Source: Treponema sp.
GTDB lineage: Bacteria; Spirochaetota; Spirochaetia; Treponematales; Treponemataceae
Direction: 5' to 3'
Assembly: GCA_017484285.1 (NCBI GenBank)
Contig: JAFUTH010000017.1
Location: forward strand, 78,541-142,540
Length of the DNA: 64,000 nt
The position numbers and the translations under genes were made by a program. Of the stretch, positions 23,370 to 63,100 are shown piece after piece; the stretch's first letter is position 1; each line of letters starts with the position of its first letter. The notes under the pieces are model-generated. The model saw only the letters and a program-made list of their open reading frames with translations, was not told where the DNA came from and made no database searches.

Positions 23370-23411
23370 AAAGCACACCTTTTCCATTGTGATGATAGAA
23401 ACTCTAGGGTA

Positions 23412-23417
23412 ATTATA
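23412..23417 (-). promoter_or_regulatory. Candidate -10 box (TATAAT) of the giant gene
   Basis: A perfect TATAAT on the minus strand lies 42 bases before the chosen ATG at 23369; the -35 region (AGCTTT, 17 bases upstream) is poor. Confidence 0.45.
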
Positions 23418-23543
23418 CATGAAGGTCATAAAAAAGCTATAATTCTCTTATTTTTTTTCTTAAAAAAACGCAACAAGCGAAAATCGTGCTAAATATCACA
23501 AAAAAAATCCATGCGAAGCACACAATCCCGCCCTACACTTACA

Positions 23544-44436: not shown

Positions 44437-47400
44437 TTATAACTCTTCCGTAATGTCCACTTCCTCAGCAAAGCGCAGATAATACAGCACACAGCGGATT
44501 TCGCTTTCGGCGCAGGCGAGCATTTGGCTCACGGCTTTGCGGTAACAGGCGAGTTGAGCATAATAAATTTCTGGCTCAATTTTTTGGTTCGTTTTGTAAT
44601 CGACTATGGTGAATTTGTATTTTGAATCGTCCGCATTCTGATACACCAAGTCAATCTGACCGTTTACAATCAGCTCGTCGGCGTAAGTCTCGCTCATCTC
44701 TTCACTTTCTGCCGCAACGAAAGATTTTTCTACCACGCTTCGGAACGAGTATTCGCTCTTTTTCCACGGAGAAGCGAAGGCTTCTTTGTAAAGCGCAGAA
44801 TCGTCAAATCGGCGTGCCATGTCAGCACACAATTCGCGGATTTTGGCGATTTTCTTTTCGCGGTTTGTCTCGCCCGCCCATTTTTCCATTCCCACGCCCG
44901 AAATGAATTTTTCGTTCATGCCAATCCACTCGCGCCCGCTGATTTTCGGCTCTGCGCCCAGCACCTTCCCTTCCATGTACGCGTGGGCAATCGTTCCAAA
45001 ATTCGTGAAATTGAACAGAGGAGCAATTTCATTATCACTTTCCCCGCCCTCATCTTCCAAATCAAGCACTTCCCCACTCGGCACAGTGCTCGCGACAATC
45101 TTGTTAATCAGCTCATACTCGAAATTAGCAGGCGACTTCCCCTCTTCATTTTCCCCTTCGCAGCATAGCTGCTCGGAGACTCGCTCAAAACCTGTCTCAC
45201 AGGTTTTGCCGGCAAGCCGTCGCTCCCTATTTCCATTTTCCACTTTCAATTTACTCGGTGAAACATACACCTTCGGCGAAAGCGTTTCGCGCTCGACTTC
45301 GACCGTCTCCGAATCGGAAAGCTGCGCGATGAAGCTGGATTTCTCGAGCGTTTTTTCGTCCTCTTTCGCGACGGGCTTGAAGGAATCCTTGTCGTTCACG
45401 AAATTGAAGGCGGGATTTTTTACCGTCGTTCCGCCGTTTTCATCTGCTGCGACTCCTTCAAACAGAATCGGGAGCAAAAGTTGGTAGATGTTCTTGGGGG
45501 CGGCAGTTTCAGCAAGCTCGTCTTTTTTGAACTCGCCGTTTTCGCTTCCAATAATATAGAGTTTTTCTTCGGCGCGCGTAAAGGCAACATACGCAAGGCG
45601 GCGCAATTCCGCGCTTTCCTGCCGCTCGTTTTGCTCCTGTGTTAGCGCAAAAAAATAATTTTTATCGTATTTTTCTGATTCCGCTTTTGAAATCTTTAAA
45701 GCGGCTTTCTGATAATCTTGCCAAGCAGGAGTTTTTAGTAAAAATCCAAATTCAGTTGCATATCCGATTTTTGCAGGCGGCGGATTACTTTTTCCCGAAA
45801 CCGCGCACACGAACACGACTTTGAATTCCAAGCCCTTGCTTTTGTGCACCGTGAGAATCTGCACCGCGTCCTCGGCATCCATAATCACATCGAGACCGTC
45901 GAGTTTTTGGTCAGCGTCCTCATAGCTTTTCACCATGTCGATGAAACTCGCAAGACTCTGCGTTTTGTCCTCGGCAAGCCGCGCCATCTCAAACAAAATG
46001 TCGTAGAACGAAGCGTAGAGCGAGACCGTCTTGTTCCACAGTGTCTCGTAGCGGTAGCCAAGCTCATACCAAATGTAAGAAATCGTTTTTGTGAGTTTTT
46101 CGGTTTTGAGCCGCACATTGATGTCGTCGTAGATTGCTTTGAGATTCATGATTTTCGCCGTCAGGTCGGAATCGTCTGAAATCGCGGCGAGCATTTTTTC
46201 GTCAAAAGGGGATTTGTACGGGCTTTCCGTATTCACGAGAATTTTTTCAAGCTCGGCAAAGGTGAGCGAGCAGAACGGAGAGCGGAGCACTTTCGCGTAG
46301 GCATTTTTGTCCTCGGGGTACACGCAGAGTTTCAAGAGAGAGATGATGTCGTTAATCGGTCCGTCGGAGAAAAATCCCTTGTAGACTTCGGTTGAATAGG
46401 GAATTCCCGCGCCAAGAAGCACATTTTCGTAGGCGGCGGTGGGCGTTGCCGTGCGGAAGAGGAGCGCAATGTCGCGGTAGTGGTATTTTTGATTTCCGCC
46501 TTTGTCCGTTTCTTCGAGCAGTTTTTTGATTTCACTGGCGACAAAACTTGCCTCGCACTCGTAGACTTTTCGGTCAGCTTCAGGATTTTCGCTTTCGGCG
46601 CGGGCATTTTCTTCGCGTGGAAGCGGAATCTGATTTTCAGCCTCTTCGTCTTTTTTGGGATAGAGGGCGAGCGTGATTTTCTTTTCGGAGAAGTCGCAGT
46701 CTTTTAATTTGAACTCAGGCACTTCGACCCGCTTGTAATCCGCTTCAAAATCGGGGATTCCCTCGGCTTCTGTTAGACCGCTTTCGTCCGTGTGCGATGA
46801 GAATTTTTCTTTGGTCATGAAAAGTGCCGGGAGCGCGTCGTTCACTTTTTCGCCGTTCGGGTAATCGTAGCCGCCAAAAATCGTATTGAAACCGCGAATC
46901 AGCTCTGGCTCGGAGCGGTAATTCGTTTTGAGCTGAATTTCATTCTGAATCGAAGAAGAAAGATTTCGGAACACGGAGACATCAGCCCCACGGAATCGGT
47001 AAATGCTCTGCTTGTCATCACCGACGAAGAACAACTTATGCGTGTCGAGCCGTTCCAAAAGGTCAGAATCCGAAAGCTTTGGGATACTGTAGTTTCCATT
47101 TTCGTCATATTTTTCGTGCGCGTCAGAAAGAATCAAAAGCACATCGCACTGAAGCTGATTGTCGTCCTGAAATTCGTCAATCATAATCGCGTCGAATTTC
47201 TGCTGCTCAATGTGGCGGATTTCCTCATGCTCGCGGAGCGAAGCAAAGGCAAGTTCGCTCACATCGCCGAACGAAAGCAAGCCCGAACTGCGCTTGGTGC
47301 GAATCACTTCGTTCTGAAAAAGCGCGAGATGAGCGAAAATCTTTTTGATGAGCGCAAAGCCCGCGATTGAATTGGCGAGCAAATAGAGCCGTTCGAGGAG

Positions 47401-48381
47401 CGGAAGCAGATTTTTTTTCGTCTGCTTGTAATTCGCATCCCCCACCCGTGAAAAATTCGTGCCGCAATATCCCGAGACATCCTTGCAATACGAAGAAAAA
47501 TTGTTTTTGAGGAAAGAATCGGCATTCTCGCCATTTTCAAAAATTTCCGCCGTCATGCGTGGAGCATCAGGATTTCCGATTTCTTCGATATAATTGTAAA
47601 GATTCAGAAGCGTGGGACTTGCCTTCGGATTTCGCGGAAGCAGAATAAACGAGCCGATTTCGTCCGCAATCTGCGCCGTGACTTTCTCATATTCGGAAAG
47701 AATCGCGTTTTTCTGTTTTTGAAGGCTCTCCGCAAAATCAATCGGCGTGAGAATCGTTGAGAATTTCAGAATCGAAGAAGCGAACAAGTCGGAAGCGACA
47801 TTCTGAATCTCAAAAACCTGCGCGATTTCCTTGATTTCCGCGCTCTCAAGATGCTCAAGCACATATTTCGTCGCCTTGTAGTTCACCAAGTTCGTGATTT
47901 TTTCGTCATCAAGCGAAAAATTCGGGTTGATTCCGTAATACCGCGCCCCCTTTTTCGCGATTTCAGAAAAATAGCTGTCCAAAGTCTGAATGTGCGTTTT
48001 GTCGAACGACTCGATTGCCGTTTTTGCCCGCGCCTTGATTTCTGCCAAGTGCGGAAGATTCGCCGACAAGTCCGCCTTTCCTTTTACATCCTTCCCGTGG
48101 AGATGGGAGCGCAAGCCGTTGAAGATTCGTTCCTTCATTTCGTTCGCGGCTTTTTTGGTAAAAGTGAGCGTAAGAATCTTCTCACAGGGAACATTTTTCG
48201 CCTCGACAAGATACGCATAGCGCGAAGCCAGCACGGTAGTCTTGCCGCTCCCCGCCCCCGCCGAGACCACGACATTGCGCGTCTCCTTGACCGCAGAAAG
48301 CTGCTCGTCATTCAGATTCGCCGAAAGCTGGCGCAGAGACTCGTTATCAAGCTCAAAAGAATCGCGTTTGTGTTCTATCAT
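44437..48381 (-). CDS. addA: ATP-dependent helicase/nuclease subunit A (AddA)
   Basis: 1314 aa. UvrD-type helicase with C-terminal RecB-like nuclease of the AddAB double-strand-break repair complex. Walker A is VSAGAGSGKTT (about 39-49), then LTFTKKAANEMKERI, Walker B MIDEFQDDNQLQ, FVGDDKQSIYRFRGA (motif III) and QILTVHKSKGLEFKVVFV. The nuclease shows GQIDLVYQ and IVDYKTNQ near 1250-1285. A palindromic element inserted in frame (45158-45227) adds a Cys-rich linker of about 25 residues. It is 35 bases after a small unknown gene, and its usual partner addB is almost 12 kb upstream, beyond a defence island, so it can no longer be co-transcribed with addB in the simple way. Confidence 0.93.
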   Translation of the reverse strand: MIEHKRDSFELDNESLRQLSANLNDEQLSAVKETRNVVVSAGAGSGKTTVLASRYAYLVEAKNVPCEKILTLTFTKKAANEMKERIFNGLRSHLHGKDVKGKADLSANLPHLAEIKARAKTAIESFDKTHIQTLDSYFSEIAKKGARYYGINPNFSLDDEKITNLVNYKATKYVLEHLESAEIKEIAQVFEIQNVASDLFASSILKFSTILTPIDFAESLQKQKNAILSEYEKVTAQIADEIGSFILLPRNPKASPTLLNLYNYIEEIGNPDAPRMTAEIFENGENADSFLKNNFSSYCKDVSGYCGTNFSRVGDANYKQTKKNLLPLLERLYLLANSIAGFALIKKIFAHLALFQNEVIRTKRSSGLLSFGDVSELAFASLREHEEIRHIEQQKFDAIMIDEFQDDNQLQCDVLLILSDAHEKYDENGNYSIPKLSDSDLLERLDTHKLFFVGDDKQSIYRFRGADVSVFRNLSSSIQNEIQLKTNYRSEPELIRGFNTIFGGYDYPNGEKVNDALPALFMTKEKFSSHTDESGLTEAEGIPDFEADYKRVEVPEFKLKDCDFSEKKITLALYPKKDEEAENQIPLPREENARAESENPEADRKVYECEASFVASEIKKLLEETDKGGNQKYHYRDIALLFRTATPTAAYENVLLGAGIPYSTEVYKGFFSDGPINDIISLLKLCVYPEDKNAYAKVLRSPFCSLTFAELEKILVNTESPYKSPFDEKMLAAISDDSDLTAKIMNLKAIYDDINVRLKTEKLTKTISYIWYELGYRYETLWNKTVSLYASFYDILFEMARLAEDKTQSLASFIDMVKSYEDADQKLDGLDVIMDAEDAVQILTVHKSKGLEFKVVFVCAVSGKSNPPPAKIGYATEFGFLLKTPAWQDYQKAALKISKAESEKYDKNYFFALTQEQNERQESAELRRLAYVAFTRAEEKLYIIGSENGEFKKDELAETAAPKNIYQLLLPILFEGVAADENGGTTVKNPAFNFVNDKDSFKPVAKEDEKTLEKSSFIAQLSDSETVEVERETLSPKVYVSPSKLKVENGNRERRLAGKTCETGFERVSEQLCCEGENEEGKSPANFEYELINKIVASTVPSGEVLDLEDEGGESDNEIAPLFNFTNFGTIAHAYMEGKVLGAEPKISGREWIGMNEKFISGVGMEKWAGETNREKKIAKIRELCADMARRFDDSALYKEAFASPWKKSEYSFRSVVEKSFVAAESEEMSETYADELIVNGQIDLVYQNADDSKYKFTIVDYKTNQKIEPEIYYAQLACYRKAVSQMLACAESEIRCVLYYLRFAEEVDITEEL
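45158..45227. repeat. Palindromic element inserted in frame inside addA
   Basis: Holds three hairpins in a row: GCAGC-ATA-GCTGC (45160-45172), AAAACCTGT-CTC-ACAGGTTTT (45187-45207) and a GCCGGC/GCCG segment. In the addA frame it codes for a peptide unlike its surroundings (RRLAGKTCETGFERVSEQLC), between two conserved parts, and causes no frameshift. It resembles protein-coding palindromic elements known from Rickettsia. Confidence 0.6.
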
Positions 48382-49235: not shown

Positions 49236-49871
49236 ATGACATACGGTTATATCCGCGTTTCGAGCGACAAGCAGACGGTGGAAAACCAGAGATTTGAAAT
49301 CAACAAATTCTGCGTGAAAGAACGACTTCGCATTGACGGTTGGATTGAAGAGACCATCAGCGGAACAAAAAATTACGACAAGCGCAAGCTCGGCGAACTG
49401 CTGAATGTGGTGCAGAAAGATGATTTGATTATCTGTGCGGAACCTTCAAGGCTGGGGCGCAATCTTTTTATGATTATGGAAATCCTGCACATCTGCATGA
49501 ACAAGGAATGCAAGGTGTGGACGATAAAAGACAACTATCGGCTCGGCGATGACATTCAGAGCAAAGTGCTTGCGTTTGCATTCGGGCTGAGCGCAGAGAT
49601 TGAGCGGAATCTTATCAGTCAGCGGACAAAGGAGGCGTTGGCTCGCAAAGTAAATGAAGGCATTGTTTTGGGCAGACCGAAAGGAAGAAGAACATCTCCT
49701 GCGAAGCACAAGTTGTATCAGAAAGATGAAATCATTTGCGAACTGCTCATTTTCGGAATCTCCCAACGGAAAATTGCAAAAATCCTTCATGTGGACAGAA
49801 ACACGCTCGCGCGATTTATGCAGGGAAGCAAAACAATCAGCAAGTACAAAAAACTGAGTGATAAAAAATGA
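49236..49871 (+). CDS. Small serine recombinase (invertase/resolvase type)
   Basis: 211 aa from the ATG at 49236 with AGAGGT upstream; an open frame extends back to 49119 but codes for a hydrophobic leader that does not belong to the family. YIRVSSDKQTVENQ carries the catalytic Ser, EPSRLGRN and AEIERNLISQRTKEAL (with the conserved Arg residues and long helix E) follow, and GISQRKIAKILHVDRNTLARFM is the C-terminal helix-turn-helix. Length and layout fit Pin/Hin-type DNA invertases. Its stop TGA lies within the left copy of a 136-bp inverted repeat and overlaps the ATG of the spare recognition cassette (ATGA). The other repeat copy is in the methyltransferase gene, so this is the likely enzyme for inversion. 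Confidence 0.9.
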   Translation: MTYGYIRVSSDKQTVENQRFEINKFCVKERLRIDGWIEETISGTKNYDKRKLGELLNVVQKDDLIICAEPSRLGRNLFMIMEILHICMNKECKVWTIKDNYRLGDDIQSKVLAFAFGLSAEIERNLISQRTKEALARKVNEGIVLGRPKGRRTSPAKHKLYQKDEIICELLIFGISQRKIAKILHVDRNTLARFMQGSKTISKYKKLSDKK

Positions 49872-50004
49872 GCGATTTTGTTAGGCAGGAAAGTTATCCG
49901 TGCGCATTTACAAGCAATGAAAGCTGGGTGATTCTCAGCCCGATTGAGCAGAGTATAAAGCGCAAGATTGAAGCCGTTGGCGTTCCGCTCAAAGACTGGG
50001 ACAT
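49869..50004 (+). repeat. Left copy of the 136-bp inverted repeat
   Basis: Compared base by base with the reverse complement of 53450-53585, 135 of 136 positions are identical; the difference (A here, C there, in GTTnGGCAGG) keeps the Arg codon. Identity ends sharply on both sides. The reading frame through both copies is the same. Confidence 0.95.
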
Positions 50005-50367
50005 TAGCATAAACTATGGAATCAAAACAGGTTTCAATGACGCTTTTATCGTAAGCGGAGCAAAACGCGATGAGATACTTGCGAATTGTAAAACTGACGA
50101 TGAGCGCAAGCGCAGTGCGGAACTTATTCGACCGATTTTGCGCGGACGGGATATAAAGAGATACAGTTATGAATATGCAGACTTATATTTAATCGCAACC
50201 TTCCCATCTAAACATTATGACATTGATGACTATCCCGCCGTGAAAGATTATTTGCTTTCATTTGGAATGGAGCGGCTTGAACAGACGGGCAAGAAATACA
50301 AAGGCTTCTCGGCTCGAAAAAAGACCAATAACAAATGGTTTGAAACGCAAGATAGCATAAGTTATTG

Positions 50368-50386
50368 GGACGAATTTAATAAGCCA
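50368..50386 (+). repeat. Short mid-cassette repeat, copy in cassette 1
   Basis: GGACGAATTTAATAAGCCA, coding for DEFNKP, is shared with copies at 52247-52268 and, inverted, 53038-53059. Here the match to the methyltransferase copy runs on for 13 more bases, to 50399, giving 32 identical bases. Confidence 0.8.
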
Positions 50387-50665
50387 AAAATCGTATGGGG
50401 AAATTTAAATCTTTCTGCAACATATACGCTTGCCCCTGCGGGAATGATGATAAATGCTCCTGCAACAATGATTGTTCCTGCAAGCGAAAACCTTTTGTGC
50501 ATTCTTAATTCAAAACTGGCTGATTATTATATTCGCAATCTTGGCGTTACAAGAAACGGCGGATATTTTGAATATAAACCGATGTTCATTGAGCAATTGC
50601 CCGTTCCGAAAAACATTGATGAAAATTTATTTTCAGAATTTACAGGAAAAGAATTACAGAATGAA

Positions 50666-50694
50666 AAAGAAATAGACCGCAAAGTGTATGAACT
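50666..50694 (+). repeat. 29-bp direct repeat, copy 1 (cassette 1 tail)
   Basis: The stretch AAAGAAATAGACCGCAAAGT and the nine following bases are identical to 52578-52606 in cassette 2; it codes for KEIDRKVYEL near the C-terminus of both tails. Confidence 0.85.
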
Positions 50695-50763
50695 GTATAA
50701 GCTGACAAACGAAGAGATTGAATTTATCGAGCAGAAATAAATGAAAAATATTGAATCATCCTG

Positions 50764-50807
50764 TTGCTTTTATACATACTTTTGTACTAAAATGTGTATA
50801 AAAGCAA
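50764..50807. promoter_or_regulatory. Operator of the abiE operon (13-bp inverted repeat)
   Basis: TTGCTTTTATACA (50764-50776) and TGTATAAAAGCAA (50795-50807) are perfect inverted copies with an 18-base spacer; the second ends right at the ATG of abiEi. AbiEi proteins are known to repress their own promoter through inverted repeats, which this matches. Confidence 0.75.
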
Positions 50808-51398
50808 ATGAATCAAACAGAAGAACTGATAATAAAAAAAGCATCTTCTCTTAATGGATATATAACCATACAGGACTGTGAATTATTGGGAATTCACAAA
50901 AATGTTGTATTCAATATGTCAAAAAATAATCTTCTGACTCGTATGGCTTCTGGCATTTATGCACTGACACAGACAATTCCAGATGAGCTTTTTATTCTTC
51001 ACTTGCGCTTTCCCTCCCTTGTTTTTTCCCATGAAACTGCTCTTTATTATTTAGGTTATAGCGACCAAGTTCCATTTCAGTATTCAGTGACTGTGCCGAA
51101 CGGTTTTCATTCGGTTGCATTAAAAGATTATATTGTCATTCAACAAAAAACTGATTTTATTGAGCAAGGTAAAATTGAAGTAGAAACCGAATGTAAAAAC
51201 AAAATTCCTGTTTATTGCATTGAACGCACCTTGTGTGATTTGCTTCATAAGCCAAGCAATTTGGATTTAGAGCGTTTTATACCCGCATTTAAAAAATATA
51301 TTTCGTCAAAAGAGCGAGACAACATAAAACTTTTAGATTTTGCAAAAAAGTTACGAGTTGAAAAAAAGATTCGTACCTATATGGAGGTATCACTTTGA
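50808..51398 (+). CDS. abiEi: AbiEi-family antitoxin/autorepressor
   Basis: 196 aa. The N-terminal winged-helix (EELIIKKASSLNGYITIQDCELLGIHKNVVFNMSKNNLLTRMASGIYAL) and the following C-terminal domain (SHETALYYLGYSD, PVYCIERTLCDLLH) are the layout of AbiEi, the antitoxin of type IV AbiE systems, which neutralises AbiEii without direct contact and represses the operon. A 13-bp inverted repeat directly before the ATG is the expected operator. Its stop overlaps the TTG start of abiEii. Base composition is more AT-rich than the addAB genes around the island, a sign of transfer. Confidence 0.88.
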   Translation: MNQTEELIIKKASSLNGYITIQDCELLGIHKNVVFNMSKNNLLTRMASGIYALTQTIPDELFILHLRFPSLVFSHETALYYLGYSDQVPFQYSVTVPNGFHSVALKDYIVIQQKTDFIEQGKIEVETECKNKIPVYCIERTLCDLLHKPSNLDLERFIPAFKKYISSKERDNIKLLDFAKKLRVEKKIRTYMEVSL

Positions 51399-52243
51399 AA
51401 ACTGATAATGCCATGCAATTAAAATCAAAAATTAACAACAAAGCAAAATCATTGAATATTTCTCCTCAGTTTGTATTGCAAAATTACATAATGGAATGTT
51501 TCATAAAGCGTATTTCTATTTCAGAATACAAGAACAATTTTATCCTAAAAGGCGGACTTTTAATTGCTTCCCTCGTAGGAATTCAAAACCGATCTACGAT
51601 GGATATGGACACAACGATAACAGGCTTTACACTTGAAAAAGAGGAAACAATCAAAATTCTGAAACAGATTTGTTCTATTTCGTGCAATGATGATTTTAAC
51701 TTCATCTTTGACAGAATTGAAGATATTAGGGAAGATGACGAGTATTCTGGACTTAGGGCATTTCTTTTTGCCGATTATGAAAAAATCCATGCACCATTTT
51801 CAATAGATATAACGACAGGAGACAAAATTACTCCGAAAGAAATCAATTATTCGTTTAAGAGAATCTTTGATAAAGATGTGATTGAAATTTATAGCTATCC
51901 GATTGAAACAGTTATTGCTGAAAAACTGGAAACAATACTTTCGCGAAATATTGAGAATACTCGTCCACGTGATTTTTATGATATTCTTGCTTTAATGCCA
52001 TTAACTCATAATTGTAACAGTGAAATTTTACGAGAAGCCTTGTTTAATACTTCCAAGCGGCGAAGCAGTGAGAAATATCTTAAAAACACAAAAGTTTTAG
52101 TTGAAACAATAAAAGTAGATACATTTATGAATTCTCTGTGGCAAAAATATGCCAAAAAACAACCTTATGCAGAAAACATTACATTTGAAAAAGTCTGTTC
52201 GACAGTTGAAAATCTGTTAGATAAAATTGGATTATTGAATTAA
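51395..52243 (+). CDS. abiEii: AbiEii-family nucleotidyltransferase toxin
   Basis: 282 aa from a TTG at 51395, chosen because GGAGG lies seven bases upstream; an ATG at 51413 is the alternative. NNFILKGGLLIASLVG and RSTMDMDTTI are the nucleotidyltransferase G-G-x-D-x-D-type motifs of AbiEii (PF08843), and PIETVIAEKLETILSR with RPRDFYDILAL are its later conserved blocks. AbiEii transfers nucleotides to tRNA in related toxins and stops growth. All motifs look intact. Its stop is only three bases from the short repeat that opens spare cassette 2. Confidence 0.88.
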   Translation: MKTDNAMQLKSKINNKAKSLNISPQFVLQNYIMECFIKRISISEYKNNFILKGGLLIASLVGIQNRSTMDMDTTITGFTLEKEETIKILKQICSISCNDDFNFIFDRIEDIREDDEYSGLRAFLFADYEKIHAPFSIDITTGDKITPKEINYSFKRIFDKDVIEIYSYPIETVIAEKLETILSRNIENTRPRDFYDILALMPLTHNCNSEILREALFNTSKRRSSEKYLKNTKVLVETIKVDTFMNSLWQKYAKKQPYAENITFEKVCSTVENLLDKIGLLN

Positions 52244-52246
52244 AAT

Positions 52247-52268
52247 TTCGGACGAATTTAATAAGCCA
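52247..52268 (+). repeat. Short mid-cassette repeat, copy in cassette 2
   Basis: 22 bases (TTC then the 19 bases GGACGAATTTAATAAGCCA) identical to the reverse complement of 53038-53059. The bases on either side differ. Confidence 0.85.
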
Positions 52269-52577
52269 TTCATAGCATGGATTGAATTGACCGATGAATC
52301 AAAATTTGTATACTGCGAAAACATGATTGCACTCAATACGGTCTTTTTCCTTAACGGTGAAAAGTTGTTTGATATTCTTGGTATGCTTAATTCAAAACTT
52401 ATATTGCATTATTTTAAAAATTGTTTGGGAACAACTTCTGGTGTTGGAACAAATAGATGGCTGAAATTCACTGTTGAGAAACTTCCGTTGGCGCATAATA
52501 CTCAACAGGAGTTGGAAAAACTTGTTAAAGAACGCATAAAAACAAAGTCGGAAACAAAACAGGCGGTTGTTTTGGAT

Positions 52578-52606
52578 AAAGAAATAGACCGCAAAGTGTA
52601 TGAACT
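52578..52606 (+). repeat. 29-bp direct repeat, copy 2 (cassette 2 tail)
   Basis: Identical to 50666-50694; same orientation, so recombination between them would delete the abiE genes. Confidence 0.85.
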
Positions 52607-52656
52607 TTACGGTCTAACACAAGAAGAAATCGATTTTATAGAGCAAAGATAATTCT

Positions 52657-55600
52657 TTATTTTATAAGACTTTCTATCTCCTTCTTCTTGTTGGAGATGG
52701 AAGTTTTTATAAAATCAATTTCTTCTTCCGTAAAATTGAAAGCTTTGTAGATTTCTTCATTTACAGAGTTTTCAATTTTATTTAATCTTGGCAAAGGTAT
52801 TTCTTCTACATATTGTTGACGCATTTGGAATCCACCATTGTCCAATGTTGCAACACTATTGAAAAAATAATATGCCGCAAATTCTGAATTCAATTCTTTT
52901 ACAAGAATATCTAGGTCAGAACCAGAGAAAAAACATAAGCTATCAACGATGAAAAAACCTTCTGGTACAAAACAGAATCTAGGGAAAGCGTTCAAGTCTG
53001 ACTTCGACAATCTCATCAATCTTGCCCATACGATTTTTGGCTTATTAAATTCGTCCGAATAATTTGCACCCCATCTTTGCATCGCATACCATTCATAACG
53101 GATTCCTGTTTCTGCTTTGTTTCGTGCAGATAATTCTTTCTTGTACTGCAACAAATGAGCATAAACAGCTGGGTATTGCTTTTTAAATTCCATCTCAGCT
53201 TTTTCAGATGCACCTTGAATTGTCTGGTCAAACTGCAAAGGAAAGTGCCACGGTATATAAATAAGCCATAAATCAGCCCAGTTGTAAGAATATCTCTTTA
53301 TATCCCGTCCGCGCAAAATCGGTCGTATTAACCCGTCCGTTCTTTTGCGCTCGGCTTCTGTTTTGCAATTGTCTAAAATTTCTTGGCGTTTATCACCAGA
53401 AATAATGAAAGCATCGTTAAATCCTGTAAGCACTCCACGGTAGATATTGATGTCCCAGTCTTTGAGCGGAACGCCAACGGCTTCAATCTTGCGCTTTATA
53501 CTCTGCTCAATCGGGCTGAGAATCACCCAGCTTTCATTGCTTGTAAATGCGCACGGATAACTTTCCTGCCGAACAAAATCGCTCAAATTTGCTAAGCCAG
53601 CTTTTGTAAGCGCCGTGGCAATGCAACTTTGTGTTTTCCCTGCGTTTTTACCTTTCTCAAAAAGCAGAATATTCGTGTCTACCGTTGCGCTTTCAAACAC
53701 TTTTACGCCTGCAAAATCAACAAGCAGTTTCGGGTTCACCTTGCTGGCAAAGAACTCACGCAGTTTTTCGCCATAGCCCGCGCGCATCCATTTGTTGGAA
53801 GTGATAAAACACAGTCTGCCTTTTTCGCTCAAAAGATTGTAGCCTTTTTCATAAAACAGGCAGTAGATGTCTCCCATTTTTGTGTAAGTTTCATATCCCT
53901 TGCCGTCATACAGTTTTGCCAACCTGCCGTCGTCTTTTTGCAGCTGCACATACGGCGGATTTCCGATTACGATGTCGAATCTATCTTTTACGCCGTACAT
54001 CCAATCCGCGTCAAAAAATGAGCTTGTCGCATTCTGGTCATAGGGATTCCATTCTGCAAGTTGAATCGCATCTTCGGGTGGATAGATTTTGTCCTCAGTG
54101 AGTAAGTCTGCCAATTCTTTACGAAGTTTTGCATCTTGATTTCTTATTGTCTTTTTTTCGTTGGCATCCTTTGCCGCAAAATGCTTCTTTCGGATTAAGT
54201 TCAACTCATTTTGAATTTCTTCAATCCGTGGATTCGCAAACAGATAGCCGTCTTTTGATTTCTTCTTTTTTTCGGTCAGCGTGTCTGCCGCAACGAATTT
54301 CGTTTCGAGATTCGGAAGCGGATTGTAACCGTAGTTGTCTTCTTCATCGTCATTCTTGGGCTGCTCGCAAATAAGGCTGATGAAAAAGCGGAGTTTACAA
54401 ATCTGCACAGCAATCGGCTGAATGTCCACGCCATAAATTGAATTCTGAATGATTTCCTTTTTCAGACTGTACAGATATTTTGCGTACTCATAATCATTGT
54501 TCAGCACAGTTTCTGAGACAGCTGCATCGGCATCTACATTTCGATACGAACGGAATTTGTTTTCGACATTGTATGTCTTATACTGCCAGATAATTTCTTT
54601 CGTGTCGGCATCAACAATCTGACGGATTTCTTGCTTGGATTTTATTGAATTGAAAGAAAGCCCGTCATCAATGCGCCCCTGTGAAAACAAGTTTGCGATG
54701 GTCTTTTTATTCTGGCTTTTATTGTATTCGTTTATCACTTCTTTTACATACAATGCCAAATCCTGAGAATTGTACAAAGTTTTCTGCAATTTTCCATTCA
54801 GTTTAAGCGTAAACATCTGGTCGCCAATGTATTCGGCTTTTATATTCAAGTCCGAGCCGCTCGGCGCATAATTGATGCACTGCCCTTTTTTGATGGGAAG
54901 CGTGTTTTGCTCGTCTTTCTGTGCGGAAATTTTATCAAGAATGGTATGCAGTTCGACAAGCTGATTTAAGATGCCCATCGGGAAGGCGCCTGAACCGCAG
55001 GCAGGGTCAATGATTTTTATCTCAAACAACGCTACACGCATTGCGTTTATCTGCTCTGGAGAAAGATGAATATTCTCAAAATTAAGAAGCGCATTCTCGT
55101 CAAACAACTTCTTCAATTCAGTCTCGCTGATATTCAGCACTTCTTTATGCAGATAGTCCAAAAGCGACTGCTCAACCATAAATGAAACAATCTCACGGGG
55201 CGTATAGAATGAGCCTGAATCTTTGCGAGCTGTTTCCTGTGTTTCGGGGTTATATGTACCCAAAAGATTTTCAAAGACTTTTCCCAACAACTCAGGGTCA
55301 AGCGCAACTTGCACATCGTTCGGGCTGCTTTCTTCCACCGTAAAATTGTAACGGCTCAAAAGCGGGATAAGTCCCTGTTGCTTTTCATCTTCGCTCCAAA
55401 AAAGTGAATTCGGCACAAATGCGCGGCGGCGCGGTTCTCTGCTAAAACCGTCAATGTAATGAACAGTGTGCGTTTTTCCATTCTCGCTTATTTCGTCCCA
55501 ATCCAGGCATTCAAACAACCCGCCGTTCAAGAACGGAACAGCCTTAAACTTCTCCACCATTTCTTCATGTGACACAGTGAAAAATGAATCTTTATTGTTG

Positions 55601-56514
55601 TCGCGATAATAAGTCTTAATGCCATAATGACTGTCTGCGCCGTCATGGTCTGAATTGTTCGCAAAGGCACGCTCGGAAATCTTTTTGTTCAACGCGCCAA
55701 AAAACAAATTCTGCAAGACGGCATTGTAATAGTTTCCGTCTTGTTCAGAATTCAACATAGGTTTTGAAAGAATGCTATTCAGCTGCTTCTTGTCAAAAAT
55801 CCATGCAGGCACTAAGTCCTTGTGCTTGATGAACCACACGAACATAAGACGAGTAATCAGGCGGATAAGCTGCAAGTTGTTGTTTTCTTTTGTAAGTTCA
55901 GCATATTTCCCGACACAGTTTGCGCTAGGAAATTCAGCAAGATTACATGCTGTTTCATACCACTTGAATAGTTCGCCGAAGAACTCTTTTGTGAGACTTT
56001 CCACGCTGAAGGCGGCGGTCATCGCGTCGTTGTCGGGGTAGCCGCCCGCTTTTGCCAAGTCCGCGAATCGTTCTGCGGCGGTACGGCAGTGCATTCCGTT
56101 TCCGCAGAGGTAGGTATAGCGTTTGAGGTTCGTCGTCTCGGAAAGCGTCGCGCCCTTGTACACATAGCTTACGCGCCATTCTTTTGACGGGTCGGTGTAA
56201 TGGAAAAAGATGAGCGCACTTTGATAGGCATCGACGATTGATTTTGTGATGTAGCGGTTAATCGTGACGCGGTTGTTTTTGAGCACCACGGACTCGGCGA
56301 GTTCCACATCCACAAAGTTTATGTCGGAGCTCTGGTTCGCAAAAATCGTGATGGCTTTGATTTTGCCCGCGTCCTTTTCTTCCACGGGAACGCGCAGGGA
56401 AGGACGGTCAATGCCAGCCCACAAGGGCGCGATGAGCTGTTCGCGGAGCGTTTCGATTCCGGGATAGTCGCCTTCAAACAATGCCTTGAACTGATTCTGT
56501 ACTGCTTCGCTCAT
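52657..56514 (-). CDS. Eco57I-like N6-adenine DNA methyltransferase with switchable recognition tail
   Basis: 1285 aa. An N-terminal region (1-420) with no recognisable nuclease precedes the Rossmann methyltransferase: GSFYTPREIVSFMVEQSLL, SAM motif IDPACGSGAFPMGIL (about 502) and the catalytic NPPYVQLQ (about 852-855), typical of amino-methyltransferases. From residue 977 comes the target-recognition tail, in two halves divided by SDEFNKPKIVW, with a short helical end. The 136-bp inverted repeat covers residues 977-1022. The start overlaps the stop of the helicase gene by ATGA. The gene should set both self-marking and, with the helicase/nuclease, restriction specificity. Similar proteins belong to type IIG, BREX (PglX) and DISARM systems; this one lacks their other genes. 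Confidence 0.9.
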   Translation of the reverse strand: MSEAVQNQFKALFEGDYPGIETLREQLIAPLWAGIDRPSLRVPVEEKDAGKIKAITIFANQSSDINFVDVELAESVVLKNNRVTINRYITKSIVDAYQSALIFFHYTDPSKEWRVSYVYKGATLSETTNLKRYTYLCGNGMHCRTAAERFADLAKAGGYPDNDAMTAAFSVESLTKEFFGELFKWYETACNLAEFPSANCVGKYAELTKENNNLQLIRLITRLMFVWFIKHKDLVPAWIFDKKQLNSILSKPMLNSEQDGNYYNAVLQNLFFGALNKKISERAFANNSDHDGADSHYGIKTYYRDNNKDSFFTVSHEEMVEKFKAVPFLNGGLFECLDWDEISENGKTHTVHYIDGFSREPRRRAFVPNSLFWSEDEKQQGLIPLLSRYNFTVEESSPNDVQVALDPELLGKVFENLLGTYNPETQETARKDSGSFYTPREIVSFMVEQSLLDYLHKEVLNISETELKKLFDENALLNFENIHLSPEQINAMRVALFEIKIIDPACGSGAFPMGILNQLVELHTILDKISAQKDEQNTLPIKKGQCINYAPSGSDLNIKAEYIGDQMFTLKLNGKLQKTLYNSQDLALYVKEVINEYNKSQNKKTIANLFSQGRIDDGLSFNSIKSKQEIRQIVDADTKEIIWQYKTYNVENKFRSYRNVDADAAVSETVLNNDYEYAKYLYSLKKEIIQNSIYGVDIQPIAVQICKLRFFISLICEQPKNDDEEDNYGYNPLPNLETKFVAADTLTEKKKKSKDGYLFANPRIEEIQNELNLIRKKHFAAKDANEKKTIRNQDAKLRKELADLLTEDKIYPPEDAIQLAEWNPYDQNATSSFFDADWMYGVKDRFDIVIGNPPYVQLQKDDGRLAKLYDGKGYETYTKMGDIYCLFYEKGYNLLSEKGRLCFITSNKWMRAGYGEKLREFFASKVNPKLLVDFAGVKVFESATVDTNILLFEKGKNAGKTQSCIATALTKAGLANLSDFVRQESYPCAFTSNESWVILSPIEQSIKRKIEAVGVPLKDWDINIYRGVLTGFNDAFIISGDKRQEILDNCKTEAERKRTDGLIRPILRGRDIKRYSYNWADLWLIYIPWHFPLQFDQTIQGASEKAEMEFKKQYPAVYAHLLQYKKELSARNKAETGIRYEWYAMQRWGANYSDEFNKPKIVWARLMRLSKSDLNAFPRFCFVPEGFFIVDSLCFFSGSDLDILVKELNSEFAAYYFFNSVATLDNGGFQMRQQYVEEIPLPRLNKIENSVNEEIYKAFNFTEEEIDFIKTSISNKKKEIESLIK
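53038..53059 (-). repeat. Short mid-tail repeat, copy in the methyltransferase
   Basis: Reverse complement of 52247-52268, 22 of 22 identical, and 32 bases shared with cassette 1 (53028-53059 side). It codes for SDEFNKP, in the same frame in all three copies. Confidence 0.85.
53450..53585 (-). repeat. Right copy of the 136-bp inverted repeat
   Basis: Lies in the methyltransferase gene at the start of its recognition tail. 3445 bases separate it from the left copy; that segment (50005-53449) is the predicted invertible DNA. Confidence 0.95.
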
Positions 56515-59500
56515 TTTTGCTCTCCTATGCTCTCCAGTTTATCAATACTCTCCAAAAAATGCTTTTCCTGATAGGTCTTGCCATCAGCGGCAGTTGTTGC
56601 AAAATTTGCAACAACTGAATCGCTTATATATTCCCCATCTTTCTTCGCCACCAGCATAAAACGCACCTCGGGCATCGCCCCGTTCACTTTCTTTGTAAGC
56701 ATGGCGTGCCAGTCCTGCAACAGCGAATCGATTTCAAGAAGCCCGTCGCAATCCGCGTCAAGGATTTTTCTGATGAGTGGCGCATTGTTTCCACGGACGC
56801 TTGCTTTTATGTCGTTGAAAAGCGGAAGCACCTCGGCGGAAAGCGGATAGTGCTTTTTCAGCTCGTCCAGTTTTTTCATCGCAGAAAGGCGGTCTTTTTC
56901 GTTCACGCGCGTTTTTGACTTTACGCTCAAGCCCTCATTGCTCCGCTGAGTCTGGAACGCGACAAGGCACTTCTGCTGACAGTCCTTGTATTCAGAAACG
57001 GAAAGCTCCCGCATCTCCTTTTTCGCAAATTCGCGGATTGCACGGCAAAACGAAATCTGATTCGGCGCATAAAAGCCTGTCGTGTGCGCTTCGTCCACAC
57101 AGAAAAATCCGTTCTGCACAAGAGAATACATGCCGGAATGATTTTGCCCGCCGTTGTTCTGCGCAACTGCCGTCACCACGGGCTTTTTTATGGCGAGCAA
57201 GTCAGCGTATTTCGCCGGTTCTTTTTCCTTAAAATCCCGAAGCTCCGTAATGAATTCGATTTTGGGGTCAAGACTTTCGGCTTCCGCAAAGTCGGGGCGT
57301 TCGATTTCCACAAGCTCCTCGTCCTGCGTGTAAATCTGGCTGTCCTCGCCGAACATGTTGTGGAACGCCTGCAATTTTATGAGCGTCCGCTTGTACAGGT
57401 TAATCTGATTGTCGCCAAGCGTGGACGGATAAAAGTTGTAGCTGTAGATTTTTTCTGATGTAGAGCCAATGCGGTTGATTCGCCCGAGCCGCTGCATGAG
57501 CCGCGTAGAATTCCACGGAGAATCGTAGTTAATCAGCGTGTTCGCGCAGTGCAAGTTCACGCCCTCGGCAAGCACATCGGTGGTCACAAGGATTTTGTAG
57601 GTGTCCTGCGGCGTTCCCTTGTAGTTCGCATCGAAATTCGCTTCCAAGACTTCCTGCATGTCCGTGCGATTCTTCGCCGTGATTTTGAGCACTTGCCCAG
57701 GGTAGTTCTCGTTTAAAAACTCGTAGAGCATGTTTTGCGTGGCAATGCATTCGGTAAAGACCACGATTTTTTGGCTGGGATTTCGCTTCTTGTTCAAGAA
57801 TTTGCTTTCGATGTTCATCACGAATGTGTCGCGCTTCTTGTCCTGCTTGTTCTTTGCCCACTCGTCCACGAGCGAGCCGATGAGCGCAAGATCATTCTGT
57901 AGATTCTGCACATATTCATCGGTAAAATCTTTCGCCCTGTATTCCGCATTTCGGTCAGTCTGGTGCTTTTTGTTGTAGGTGGCGATTTTCGCCCTGATTT
58001 CCGCAAAGGCTTTTTCCCGCTCGCTTACTGAATACGCATTGAGAATCTTATGAATGTCAAAGTCCGGGCAGACAAACACGCTGTCGCTCTCAAACATTCG
58101 GAGCATGTTCTGCGTGTTTGCATACAGATTTTTAAGCGACTCTTCAAAGGCATCGCGGCTGCTTTCAAGGCGTTTTACAAGGTGCAGCTCCATTAAGCCC
58201 GCAAGTCGCTCGGAAATTCCCTCGGCGGTAATCGTGCCGCTCGCTTCCCTGCCCCGCTTTGAGTCATATTCGTAGCGTCTGCGGTTTTTCGCGTCTTTCA
58301 AATACTGAATCGCGCGGTAGCGGTAGTAGCCCAAGCAGTTCACGCCTTCTTCGCGGAAGTCAAGCTCCTGCATTCCGTTTTCGTCCACATCAACACGGGA
58401 GACTTTCGGCGCAATCACATCAAGCGTATGCACAAAAAGCTGTGCGAGCGAGCCTGTCATCTCGTAGGGCAAGCCCTCCGGCGGCTGAATCTTGGGGAAC
58501 ACGATGCCCTGCTTTTCCATGTCCGCTTTGTACAAGTCAGACTGCAAATCAGTGCGGGTGCGGCGGATAACGAGCTGGTTCAGCACATCGTCTCGTATCT
58601 GGTCGGCAAGTTCTTTCAGCGTGAGCATGTCCTGTTTTTTCTGCGCCTTTGTCTTAGGGATCTTGTTCCCCTCGCCGTCTTTTTCGCTCCAGTCGCGGAT
58701 ACACGCCTCGTATACCTTTTCTTTTTCGGAAAAATACGACTCCAGATTGCTTTCATGCTGCCCAAGAGCCGTGAGCGTAGAATGGCGGCGGTCATGCTCA
58801 AAAAGATAGAGCTGATTTGCGATGTCGGACGGGCGGTTGTTCTGTGGGGTCGCGGAAAGCAGTACGACAAAAGGCTTTGTTTCGGCAAGCAAATCTTCAA
58901 GTTTCTGATACATAATCGTGCCGCTGTTGCGGAAGCGGTGGCTTTCGTCCACGACGACCATGCCGTACGCTTTTTTTACGAATGCGGAATCAAAATCATC
59001 CGTCTGGGCTAAGTTTTCGCCGTTTTCTGTGCCGCCCTCGGAATCAAGACAGCCGATTGTCGTGAGCGTGATGTACGAGCCGATTTTCTTCTCTGCGTCC
59101 TTGTCAAAATAGTCAATCGAATCCTGCCAGCTTTTTTTGACGGCGGGCGGCGTGATAATCAGAACGGGCTTTGCAAAATCGCTTTCCAAAAGGGAGCGTT
59201 TCACAATCATCAGCGCGGTAAAAGTCTTTCCCAAACCCACCACATCCGCAAGAATCATGCCGTGGTGCTTTTCCAGAATGCCGAACGCCTGATTGACCGC
59301 CTGAAGCTGATACGAGAGCAACTTGAATTTCGGGTCGCGTGGCACATACTCCGACGGCGCAATTTTTCCCGCAGAATCAAGATAGGAAGCAAACTGCGTG
59401 ATGAGCAACTTGCGGTAGGCGTCTTTGGGAGAAAGGAGGGCGAAATCAAACTGATTTTCAGGTGAACAAACCTTTTCTGCTGCCCGCCCGATTTTTGACG

Positions 59501-60170
59501 GACGAAGAATTTCTTCAAGAAATACTCCTTCCCAGGGATTCGACAATTTCCATTTTTCTTCAAACCACTGAGTATGGGTTTTATGTTTTTTCGTTCCACT
59601 GCCTACAACATGCAACCAATTTGATTCAAGATAATTCAGTTCTGCATTCTCAAAAAGTCCGTTTTTAGTAAAATTACTGCTTCCGACAATTCCATACGCT
59701 TTTTCATTTTCGACATCTTTTTCGGTTCTAAAAATCCAGCACTTTGAATGCAAGAATTGAACTTCATCGTTCTCATTCTTTTTAAAAATATGCACTTCAA
59801 ACTTTTCAGTATTTCCAAGATTTTTGAGAAGAAATGCAACAGCCTCTACATAATCATCTTTTACTTCAATTTCATTTATGTCGGTTTTTATAAAATCTTC
59901 AGGAAATTGCTTTGCGTCTCCATACTTCGGATTTTTGTTGTATTTCGCATACAGATACGGGTCTTTTCCGATAAGAATACGAAGTTTCGCTTTTTCTCTC
60001 TGCAAAAAATCCTTCAATGTGCCAAAAATAAGCGCAAGACCTGGAATATCCCAATAGCCCGTGGCAATATCAATCTGCGTAATTGACTCATCTGCTATAA
60101 TTTTGTTCACAATATCCACGAGTTTCAGACTTTCTGAATTGTCAATGAGCGTGTTGCCAATTTCTATCAT
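56511..60170 (-). CDS. PLD-nuclease/SNF2 helicase fusion, restriction subunit
   Basis: 1219 aa. Residues 20-200 form a phospholipase-D-like nuclease domain with HSKCWIF (HxK, about 142) and GSSNFTKNG (about 160). A SNF2/superfamily-2 helicase follows: motif I ADVVGLGKTF (about 305-315), motif II VVDESHRFRN (about 407), and the C-terminal half with FTECIATQNML, ILVTTDVLAEGVNLH and LMQRLGRINRIGS. The last 300 residues are helical. With one HKD-type motif, the nuclease may need to dimerise. The gene starts 10 bases after addB, with AGGGGGG spanning the addB stop, and overlaps the methyltransferase gene by ATGA. I infer that it translocates on and cuts unmodified DNA. Confidence 0.88.
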   Translation of the reverse strand: MIEIGNTLIDNSESLKLVDIVNKIIADESITQIDIATGYWDIPGLALIFGTLKDFLQREKAKLRILIGKDPYLYAKYNKNPKYGDAKQFPEDFIKTDINEIEVKDDYVEAVAFLLKNLGNTEKFEVHIFKKNENDEVQFLHSKCWIFRTEKDVENEKAYGIVGSSNFTKNGLFENAELNYLESNWLHVVGSGTKKHKTHTQWFEEKWKLSNPWEGVFLEEILRPSKIGRAAEKVCSPENQFDFALLSPKDAYRKLLITQFASYLDSAGKIAPSEYVPRDPKFKLLSYQLQAVNQAFGILEKHHGMILADVVGLGKTFTALMIVKRSLLESDFAKPVLIITPPAVKKSWQDSIDYFDKDAEKKIGSYITLTTIGCLDSEGGTENGENLAQTDDFDSAFVKKAYGMVVVDESHRFRNSGTIMYQKLEDLLAETKPFVVLLSATPQNNRPSDIANQLYLFEHDRRHSTLTALGQHESNLESYFSEKEKVYEACIRDWSEKDGEGNKIPKTKAQKKQDMLTLKELADQIRDDVLNQLVIRRTRTDLQSDLYKADMEKQGIVFPKIQPPEGLPYEMTGSLAQLFVHTLDVIAPKVSRVDVDENGMQELDFREEGVNCLGYYRYRAIQYLKDAKNRRRYEYDSKRGREASGTITAEGISERLAGLMELHLVKRLESSRDAFEESLKNLYANTQNMLRMFESDSVFVCPDFDIHKILNAYSVSEREKAFAEIRAKIATYNKKHQTDRNAEYRAKDFTDEYVQNLQNDLALIGSLVDEWAKNKQDKKRDTFVMNIESKFLNKKRNPSQKIVVFTECIATQNMLYEFLNENYPGQVLKITAKNRTDMQEVLEANFDANYKGTPQDTYKILVTTDVLAEGVNLHCANTLINYDSPWNSTRLMQRLGRINRIGSTSEKIYSYNFYPSTLGDNQINLYKRTLIKLQAFHNMFGEDSQIYTQDEELVEIERPDFAEAESLDPKIEFITELRDFKEKEPAKYADLLAIKKPVVTAVAQNNGGQNHSGMYSLVQNGFFCVDEAHTTGFYAPNQISFCRAIREFAKKEMRELSVSEYKDCQQKCLVAFQTQRSNEGLSVKSKTRVNEKDRLSAMKKLDELKKHYPLSAEVLPLFNDIKASVRGNNAPLIRKILDADCDGLLEIDSLLQDWHAMLTKKVNGAMPEVRFMLVAKKDGEYISDSVVANFATTAADGKTYQEKHFLESIDKLESIGEQK

Positions 60171-60179
60171 TTTCCCCCC

Positions 60180-63100
60180 TCACTCCCCGCTTACCGTGAA
60201 ATATCGTCTGCACAGTGCCTGATAGTCTATGCAGTTGTCAAATTCGCCTTTAGCAGTGCAGACGGTGCGGCTTTGGTTCAGCGCGGTCACGGCAAATTGT
60301 TCGCTTGTCACTTCTTCGTAGAATCGGCGGGTGTATTTAAGCATTTCGGCTTTTGCGAGATTCACTTCTTCGTCGGTGATTTTGTTCGCCTTTCCGTTTT
60401 CGGTCTGCCCCAAGAAGGGCGTTTCGGCGACGTTTTTTATCGAATAGAATTGCGCGATTGTGACGGCGAGGCGTTCGGATTCGTTCACATTGTTTTCGAG
60501 CAAGTACAAATAGAGCGGAAGCTGGAAGTCGATGATTTTTTCTTTTTTGTTCGGCTCTTGCTCCTTGACTTTCAGATTTTTCGGCACGGAAGAAGTTTTG
60601 TAGTCAACGATGGCGAATTCCGTTTCATTCGGAGAAGCGAGAATGCAGTCGATTTTGCCCGCAAGATAATAGCCGCACTCCCCGCTTTCACTTTCGGGCG
60701 GAAGGGCGCACACTTCCTTTTCGACGGCATACACCGTAAATCCGCGGAAAATGTCGCACAAGTGGAAAAGGCTTTTTTCGAGCATTCGGAAATTCGCGTT
60801 TTCTTCGGCTCGCGCTTCGTCGGCGATTTTGTATTGCGAAGAGATGATTTTGATTGTCGTCTGGCTTGCCTGCGTGCGCTCGCTCAATTCAGAAAAAATC
60901 TCTTTGAACGCGGAATTTTTATGCTCGGGTGAGACCGCTTCGTTTATCGAGTCAATCAGAATCTTTCGGTACTCGCTTCCCAAATGGTCGGCAGTTTCGC
61001 CCGTGCAGAGCGGCTTTTTTGCTTCCATGAGTTTTTTTGAGAACAGCTCGAAGATTTTGTGGTTCACCGTTCCGAGAATATATTCGTCAATCAATTCGGC
61101 TTCGTTGTCGAGCGGGGCAAGGCGAAGCACATTCTTAAAGAGCCATTTCCGCGGACAAGTGAAGTATTGCTTTAAAGTCGTGGGCGTGACTTCGATTTTT
61201 TCAAGAAGAAGCGGATTTTTCGCGCGGTAAGAAGAAGCATTTTCCTTTAAAAAATGAAGCCGGTTCTGAATGAGCGCGGTGAATTTCTCGTTTTTTTCAA
61301 AAAGACCCGAATCTTTTTTCTCAGAAGCGTGCGATTTCTTCCATAAAGAAAGCCCTGCCGCCTGTTTTGCGTACACTTTTTTGAGATTCGAATACGGATT
61401 TCCCGAAAGAAGCGATTTTTTCTCCTCGGAGAATGAATCCGTGCGATTTTTTGAGGATTTTCCCTCCGTTTCGCTCAGTTTTCCGTAGAAAAAGCCGTAC
61501 TCGCCGTTGTAGGCATGGCGCGACGCGGTGAAATATGCTTTTTCGAGCGCGGAATGCTGGTAGAGCTTCACAAAGTCAAAAGTCGGGTCGGAGTCAGAAA
61601 ATCCGAGCGACTGGTCGATTTCGCCCATCTTCATGAAAATCCGCCGTTTGTTCTCGTTCAAAAAATCAAGCGGCTTGAAAGAATCCGCCACCGAAAGCGA
61701 ATCCTGCGTTGAGTCCACCACCACATGGATTTTGTACGGAGCGGCGGGCGCACTTTTGTACGGATAGACCTGCACCGCCCTACTCTCCCCTTGCGAAAGG
61801 TACTGCACCGTGGAAAGATGCGAGACAAAAAACGAGAACGGAGAAGCCACCGCGTAGTCGTGAAATTCTTCTTCCAAATCGACGATTTCATTCAGCGAAG
61901 TGATGCATCGGCTCAGCACATTGTTGCTCAACGGCATTTCTTGGAACGCCGCCATGTCAAAGAAATTTTCCTTGAACCGCTCGTAGCCTTCACGAATCTC
62001 GGAGAATTTTTTTGCGCGAACCATCGGCGGAATCAGCTCGGCAAGATTCTTATAAAGATTTTTAATCAGCTCGTCGGAATTGAGCAGCGTTCCCCGGTCG
62101 TCCTTCGGGTGAGCGAACGACTCGTCCCACACCGTGACCGCCCGATTTTTCTCAAAGCGAAGCTCGCCCGCCGTGCAGATACAATTGTTCATGCGCCCGA
62201 AAAGCAGCAGATTCTCAATCGTCGCCTTGTTCGCCCAGGGAATATCCTCGTTTAGCAGAAGATTTTTCAGGCTCTCATACGAAAACTGATTCTCCACGCA
62301 CTCCTGAAGCTGGGAAAAGAACGCGCCCGCGCCGTACGAAGAAAGCGGTCGGCTGTAGCGGACAGAATGCGGAATCTCGTAAAGCGAGAATTCACGATCA
62401 AGGTACGAGCCGAAGTTGTCAAGATTCGGCACATTCACCGCCATGTCGCTCCACTCAATCCCGTTCTGCTCGTGCATTTCACGCAAAAAGAGCGCAACAT
62501 CTTTCAGCTCCAAGCCCGAATTCTCAAAAAAATACGCCTCGTACGCGCCTTCTTCTTCGGGAACGCCCACAAAATGAATTTTTTCGATTCCCGAAAGTTT
62601 GTGGCGGTACTGCTCCCAGTCTTCAAGCGTCTCAGGATAAATCAGAAAATACTCGCGCCCGTCGCCCGAAAAGTCAGGCTCAATCCAGGCGGGGTCAAAA
62701 AGCGAATGCGCGTGCAAAAAAGCCTTGTATTCATCGTACAGAATCTGAAAATCACGGTCTTCGTCGTCGGTAAAGCCCGCCGCTTTGTAGGAATTGTAAA
62801 ACGCTTTGAGATGCGCGTCGTCCTCAGAATCAGAAAAAGACTGTTCGACACCCTCAGAACCGCGAGCTTCCAACTGCGTATCCCGCAATTTTTTCCACAA
62901 CTGCAAGGACGGCAGAATCGAAGCAATCCACGAGGCAAATCCGCCCGACTCCTTCGCGTAGGCTTCAACGATAAGGCTTTTAAAGAACGGACTTTCCGCG
63001 TTTTTCTGAATGAGACAGTCCGAAAAGATTTTTCGCATGAGCGACGGCACGGTGCGCAGATTCTCAGCCTTCGCACGAATGCACTCGCCCTTGAATTTAT

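Follow-up and report, generated by a model that had tools for sequence, protein, structure and literature searches.

How many forms can one DNA methylase take when an invertase gene and spare recognition sequences lie beside its own gene? This question is raised by a locus in the 64,000-nucleotide stretch of Treponema sp. DNA analysed here (the window; G000:C4:78541-142540 of a genome assembly of 3.17 Mb in 26 contigs). The first-pass annotation had proposed switching by inversion between two states, in which a single flip exchanges the 3'-terminal part of the methylase gene for a spare tail. The locus starts with a gene for a serine DNA invertase of 211 aa (49236..49871, plus strand, ATG at 49236), whose TGA overlaps the ATG of a silent open reading frame of 290 aa (49868..50740, plus strand; Pfam TaqI_C 1.8e-12). 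This frame is a full-length recognition-tail cassette, 51–53% identical to the tail of the expressed methylase, an Eco57I/TaqI_C-type N6-adenine DNA methylase of 1285 aa encoded on the minus strand (52657..56514). The expressed and silent tails are oriented toward each other, and between them, within the predicted invertible segment, there are genes for an AbiEi-like antitoxin (50808..51398, plus strand; PADLOC AbiEi 1.4e-55, no match in a Pfam search) and an AbiEii-like nucleotidyltransferase toxin (51395..52243, plus strand; Pfam AbiEii 1.2e-33, PADLOC 7.7e-97), followed by a silent half cassette (52247..52652, plus strand), which resembles residues 1151–1255 of the methylase and has a TaqI_C score of 21.8 bits, under the Pfam cut-off of 26.5. 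On the other side the methylase gene shares 4 bp with the gene of a PLD-SNF2 helicase (56511..60170, minus strand; Pfam Helicase_C, SNF2-rel_dom, PLDc_2). An adjacent inverted repeat with 22-nt arms of 86% identity (50764-50807), a possible operator, is situated directly ahead of AbiEi. Outside the locus, one flank encodes a UvrD-type helicase that includes a PD-(D/E)XK domain and the other a distinct PD-(D/E)XK protein (44437-48381 and 60180-63254), which we take to be perhaps an AddAB-like pair split by insertion of the locus, and an open reading frame of 3685 aa occupies positions 12372-23429 of the minus strand.

The invertase was assigned to the Mpi family on the basis of its score with the NCBIfam equivalog NF009949 (325.2 bits against a cut-off of 272), a Pfam Resolvase match and an alignment with the solved DNA invertase 4m6f that starts from residue 1; inverting activity is predicted by this membership. 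One more gene of Mpi-family type, 54% identical, was found in the same genome (G000:C5:24185-24772, L002, L033), and the surrounding 19 kb that were read contain no methylase tail. The methylase matched Pfam Eco57I (1.1e-40) and N6_Mtase (8.8e-16), while its TaqI_C score of 24.1 bits lies under the cut-off of 26.5. It also matched the PADLOC model REase_MTase_IIG (7.1e-121), which places a methylase and a recognition domain in one Type IIG-like protein. No nuclease family was detected by Pfam within this chain; a PLD domain is present in the neighbouring helicase, which may participate in restriction. A relative of this helicase stands upstream in 68 of the 73 related loci with room for it. 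Membership in BREX as PglX was rejected (best BREX model 78.8 bits for the methylase, cut-off 500), as was membership in DISARM (DrmD model 142.3 bits for the helicase, cut-off 610). An AlphaFold model of methylase residues 640–1285 had a mean pLDDT of 75 and gave loose fold matches, CamA being the first (TM about 0.4, rmsd 12.8); the blocks described below were placed without it.

Comparison of the tails at the DNA level confirmed the 136-bp inverted repeat seen before, with one mismatch between 49869..50004 (plus strand) and 53450..53585 (minus strand, methylase residues about 977–1022), as well as the end of the recombinase gene in its left copy (stop at 49871) and the agreement of tail reading frames on both sides. 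However, a single repeat does not describe the relation between tails, since their identity is concentrated in three patches, designated X1, X3 and X2 in the order of translation. X1 is the 136-bp repeat. X3 is a 35-bp exact run (50129..50163, plus strand, and 53291..53325, minus strand) encoding RPILRG at residues about 1064–1069, and X2 is a 32-bp exact run (50368..50399, plus strand, and 53025..53056, minus strand) encoding DEFNKPKIVW at residues about 1154–1163. A further X2 copy opens the half cassette (52247-52268), where 22 bp exactly repeat the expressed X2. Weaker similarity extends around the 136-bp repeat over 338 nt at 79% (49849-50186 / 53268-53605), while X2 lies in a separate 44-nt inverted pair of 93% identity (50359-50402 / 53022-53065) with an additional copy at 52247-52280. 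Three blocks, B1, B2 and B3, are thus delimited in each full tail, and the half cassette carries B3 only. Three patches were also found in a single-contig genome (G270), where inverted stretches of 144, 41 and 33 bp, each apart from the others, have 92, 98 and 94% identity. The window therefore contains expressed and silent recognition sequences in inverted arrangement with common repeats, as is characteristic of inverting specificity loci.

With a probability of about 0.8 we suppose that the Mpi-type invertase inverts DNA between copies of X1, X3 and X2 and in this way swaps three blocks of the methylase tail, producing up to 12 versions of the enzyme. Inversion between paired X1 sites would exchange the whole tail B1-B2-B3, inversion between X3 sites would exchange B2-B3, and inversion between X2 sites would exchange B3 with either of the two spares. 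Taken together, such suffix swaps would reach every combination, 2 x 2 x 3 = 12 in the window. The adjacent invertase likely performs the swaps, and the blocks would set the sequence to be methylated. Recombination between the directly repeated X2 copies (50368, 52250) would delete the AbiE pair together with one B3, and one may speculate that the toxin-antitoxin pair might select against such deletion. The proposed kind of mechanism, switching by inversion, is strongly supported by the comparative and population data presented below, while the two-state flip turned out to be too simple for a locus with three exchange places per cassette and an additional half cassette.

If blocks are exchanged independently, they should be found in different combinations on the same methylase body, and alternative tails on one body were indeed found in relatives. 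Two protein searches were analysed, each through the best 120 of 7999 scored proteins; these are 90% clusters mostly derived from metagenome assemblies, and all counts refer to clusters rather than cells. Among the best 120 obtained with the window methylase, 52 clusters, including entries named Candidatus Treponema excrementipullorum, have bodies (residues 60–940) at least 98.1% identical to the first one. Two B1, two B2 and three B3 types were registered in this group, and 10 of 12 combinations are present if the truncated B3 type (P0080) is merged with the full one. Twelve forms is the number predicted by a window-like layout with two full tails and a half tail, for a group that is known from proteins alone. 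From residue 987 onward each variable column shows its strongest association with a single block, the blocks following one another in order. The blocks are mutually unlinked (pairwise p values of 1.00, 0.37 and 0.81). The gaps between them, 968–987, 1061–1076 and 1153–1161, contain X1, X3 and X2. Near-identical bodies therefore carry independently assorting blocks with breakpoints at the sites. Of the other groups in the same search, one of 18 clusters showed 12 combinations (truncated forms included) and one of 3 clusters showed 3, while three control groups of 12, 5 and 4 clusters had one tail type each.

The distribution of the module was estimated by a contig scan with the methylase alignment, from which the best 80 loci were kept out of a larger number. 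Cassette and invertase were scored in 45 of them; the other 35 were omitted, since they showed no cassette and had less than 3 kb of downstream sequence. Of the scored loci, 15 have a silent cassette downstream in the opposite orientation, and an Mpi-like invertase accompanies it in all 15. Among the 30 loci scored without silent cassette an invertase was present in three (L120, L129, L144) and 27 had neither (Fisher test, 2.4e-9); L120 has a silent tail, yet was scored without it by the position rule. Invertases of related loci are 56–91% identical to that of the window and belong to sequences titled Prevotella, Porphyromonas, Fibrobacter, Bacteroidales, Victivallales and others. In each of the 15 loci with two B1 copies, one copy is of [YN]RG type and the other of NYG type, and the expressed copy is [YN]RG in 7 cases and NYG in 8. 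Blocks resembling the silent ones of the window are expressed elsewhere: in a locus of a rumen spirochaete (L095) expressed B2 and B3 are 82 and 84% identical to the silent blocks of the window and 25 and 19% to its expressed ones. The silent cassette of G022 is itself a mosaic, with B2 95% identical to the expressed and B3 89% identical to the silent block of the window and a break at X2.

The DNA of the patches was then compared between loci in a codon scan, which registers where identical residues also carry identical codons; 60 shuffles preserving protein and codon usage served as control. The sample comprised 19 loci chosen because a tail, expressed, silent or both, was visible in them. 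Of these, 16 come from the 80 loci of the contig scan, and the others are the window, L035 and G022, the latter with its silent tail only, so that 18 have both tails; the silent tails of L120, L128 and L153 begin at X3. Across these 18 loci of several phyla and the silent tail of G022, scan windows starting at residues 971–979, 1055–1066 and 1145–1160 stand out, with maximum z of 22.5 at X1, 20.6 at X3 and 11.8 at X2. Elsewhere z does not exceed 4.4, and the largest z in 60 shuffles was 4.6. The signal resides in this per-window z, because windows vary in residue degeneracy and the raw maximum of codon identity (0.90) differs little from the largest shuffle value (0.87). Since strong conservation of synonymous codons is confined to three places, the DNA itself seems to be constrained there across phyla. 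At X1 this constraint is located at the start of the 136-bp repeat, and the idea that the whole repeat serves as a site was rejected, as the codon signal drops after about residue 980.

Mosaic tails might alternatively arise by homologous recombination of RecA type or gene conversion between cassettes, with the invertase acting elsewhere or being a passenger. Patches of 32–136 bp could support such exchange, and the inversion of hsdS in SpnIII is reported, according to the title of PMC6620402, to be independent of all known pneumococcal site-specific recombinases. The silent B1 of G022 also fits this explanation, being mixed within the block (0.77 to the expressed and 0.82 to the silent B1 of the window); therefore some exchange must lie outside the three sites, and the three-site model alone does not explain this case. 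However, homologous recombination needs identity within a locus rather than the same codons across phyla, the invertase accompanies every one of the 15 silent cassettes, and the breakpoints are confined to three narrow intervals. We consider it unlikely, though it is the most serious of the alternatives.

What the invertase might recognize was approached through short elements common to the patches. The element [CG]GA[AT]TTT encodes -SDF- at X1, -DDF/DEF- at X2 and, in another frame, -PIL- at X3; it occurs in 12 of 34 cassettes at X1, 15 of 37 at X3 and 31 of 37 at X2. Its presence in only part of the cassettes means that one common recognition sequence is not established, and the element is a hint of a candidate invertase site. 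A consensus, GNNSGAWTTTNNNNRGC, derived by visual fitting to X1 and X2, is matched 7 times in the window, where 0.56 matches would be expected; five of the matches are at X1/X2 and two are strays. X3 deviates from the consensus by one base, and over the whole genome the consensus shows about twofold enrichment (56 versus 25 for the reversed pattern); given the strays, the missed X3 and this enrichment, it was dropped as a recognition sequence. A palindromic core was also sought in the 136-bp repeat, where only weak dyads were seen.

Returning to programmed inversion, its expected products can be looked for in relatives of a strain whose two tails are both known. Among the best 120 proteins of the search with Prevotella denticola NCTC13067 (L108), a group of 33 clusters has 12 full-length combinations; groups of 48, 16, 6, 4, 4 and 3 clusters have 7, 11, 4, 1, 2 and 2, respectively. 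Silent blocks of NCTC13067 are expressed elsewhere on the same body at 100% identity, B1 alone in P0127/P0128 and both B1 and B2 in P0129/P0130, together with its expressed B3 at 98–99%. These data bear on the possibility that a cell line keeps its tails unchanged, differences between strains being due to horizontal module exchange rather than to programmed inversion. The module moves, as invertases and tails are alike across phyla, and the block types of P. denticola exceed what the two tails of one strain can supply: in 19 of 33 clusters the silent B1 of NCTC13067 is joined to a B2, a B3 or both that score below 0.93 against each of its two tails, and therefore blocks are also imported or diverge. 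Still, static tails leave without explanation the expression of silent B1 and B2 on the same body at full identity, the joint retention of both B1 types in all 15 loci and the existence of control groups (n = 12, 5 and 4) in which tails do not vary, and we regard this explanation as quite improbable.

Contig ends merit separate consideration. In 25 of the 80 loci the contig stops no more than 75 bp from where the methylase match ends, and 13 of these contig ends, assigned by eye, fall inside three site windows covering 73 of 885 residues (2.1 expected, binomial 1.6e-8); L121, for example, ends at GAGCGATTTT; in L115 the end is CGACC, with GATTTT expected next. This coincidence has a supporting role, as repeats alone can break short-read contigs. 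Although contigs do break at the patches and most of the listed proteins come from assembled metagenomes, the idea that block combinations are short-read chimeras joined at common patches can practically be dismissed, because the layout occurs in single-contig genomes (G068, G270), some forms are backed by many contigs (21 for P0029, 14 for P0060), P0131 and P0146, named P. denticola by their source, have the silent B1 of NCTC13067 as their expressed B1, and chimeras cannot produce codon conservation between species.

Inversion of methylase tails appears to exist in more than one format. In a second subtype inverted repeats of 44–83 bp are placed at the NPPY motif, where the silent open reading frame begins, and the whole C-terminal half would be exchanged. 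The loci noted are L043, L079, L083, L085, L086, L088 and L089, and Treponema loci of this kind occur in genomes G018, G073, G151, G074, G222, G179 and G219. Between or beside the tails of five second-subtype genomes and of G022 there are genes for HigBA, MqsA, PIN, AAA ATPase and UPF0175/DUF3368 proteins. In L098, L105 and L108 the tails have almost nothing between them, which bears on the deletion-guard idea raised for AbiE. Genes resembling toxin-antitoxin or abortive-infection systems were noted at the tails in the window (50808-52243), L032:7217-8046, L083:1743-2312, L086:4757-5904 and L043:5482-7388, their families being AbiE, UPF0175/DUF3368, HigBA, MqsA and AAA ATPase. Another locus, L197 (G262:C1:1858000-1874000), has genes for a pair of Mpi-like invertases, which share 48 and 70% identity with that of the window, and also an inner tail-to-tail cassette pair together with an outer 49-bp inverted repeat of 100% identity at the NPPY motif; these are possibly nested switches.

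A more far-reaching scheme would be that one invertase acts on one short site present at three places in two reading frames, that the module has spread through spirochaetes, Bacteroidota, Fibrobacter and others, that different blocks read different parts of the target and that the AbiE pair, lying between directly repeated X2 copies, punishes deletions shrinking the array. As a whole it is offered tentatively and is more doubtful than probable. If the exchange of blocks itself is true, a clone would have about 8 to 12 methylation specificities at its disposal in advance, and its epigenome would be altered with every inversion. Natural combinations would then serve as a code book, as methylomes of their carriers would show which block reads which base, and such a block-to-base code would help methylase engineering. 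Described inverting loci, as far as the passages considered go, shuffle two half domains of the Type I S subunit, while the tail in the window consists of three blocks predicted to be exchangeable. Searches of the openly licensed literature brought up no title or abstract dealing with the shuffling of a one-chain methylase at three sites. A survey of gene-altering programmed inversions that change coding sequence was reportedly made by Milman et al. in 2023 (NAR gkac1166) and may include such loci.

Judging from its sequence, the locus would be a new three-site variant of invertible specificity switching, which is known for hsdS and BREX pglX. Passages of the literature describe inversion in Type I hsdS loci and, in Lactobacillus rhamnosus BREX, a partial pglX accompanied by an integrase (PMC11892184, PMC11868660, PMC5903667, PMC5608340, PMC12707154, PMC13076061, PMC7394358, PMC7513527). 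Inverting hsdS loci of Streptococcus pneumoniae, S. suis and others, as presented in the relevant part of PMC7394358, resemble the window in that specificity sequences occur in expressed and in silent form, that inverted repeats stand ahead of the recognition domains and between them, that switching of specificity is combinatorial and that a recombinase gene is often present at the locus. In those loci, by contrast, two repeats generate four alleles from the two half domains of a separate S subunit, whereas the window combines a serine invertase of Mpi type with a one-chain methylase in three blocks, three places of predicted exchange and an additional half cassette. The pglX locus of L. rhamnosus BREX likewise combines a methylase gene, its partial copy and a recombinase gene, and phase variation was proposed there; in contrast, the window methylase reaches 78.8 of the 500 bits set for the BREX model, and three exchange sites do not appear in the BREX passages of that source (PMC7513527). 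The invertase belongs to the same NCBIfam family as Mpi of Bacteroides fragilis, described in the passage cited as a master invertase of at least thirteen regions, seven polysaccharide loci among them (PMC5903667), while the likely targets in the window lie inside coding sequence and adjoin the invertase gene.
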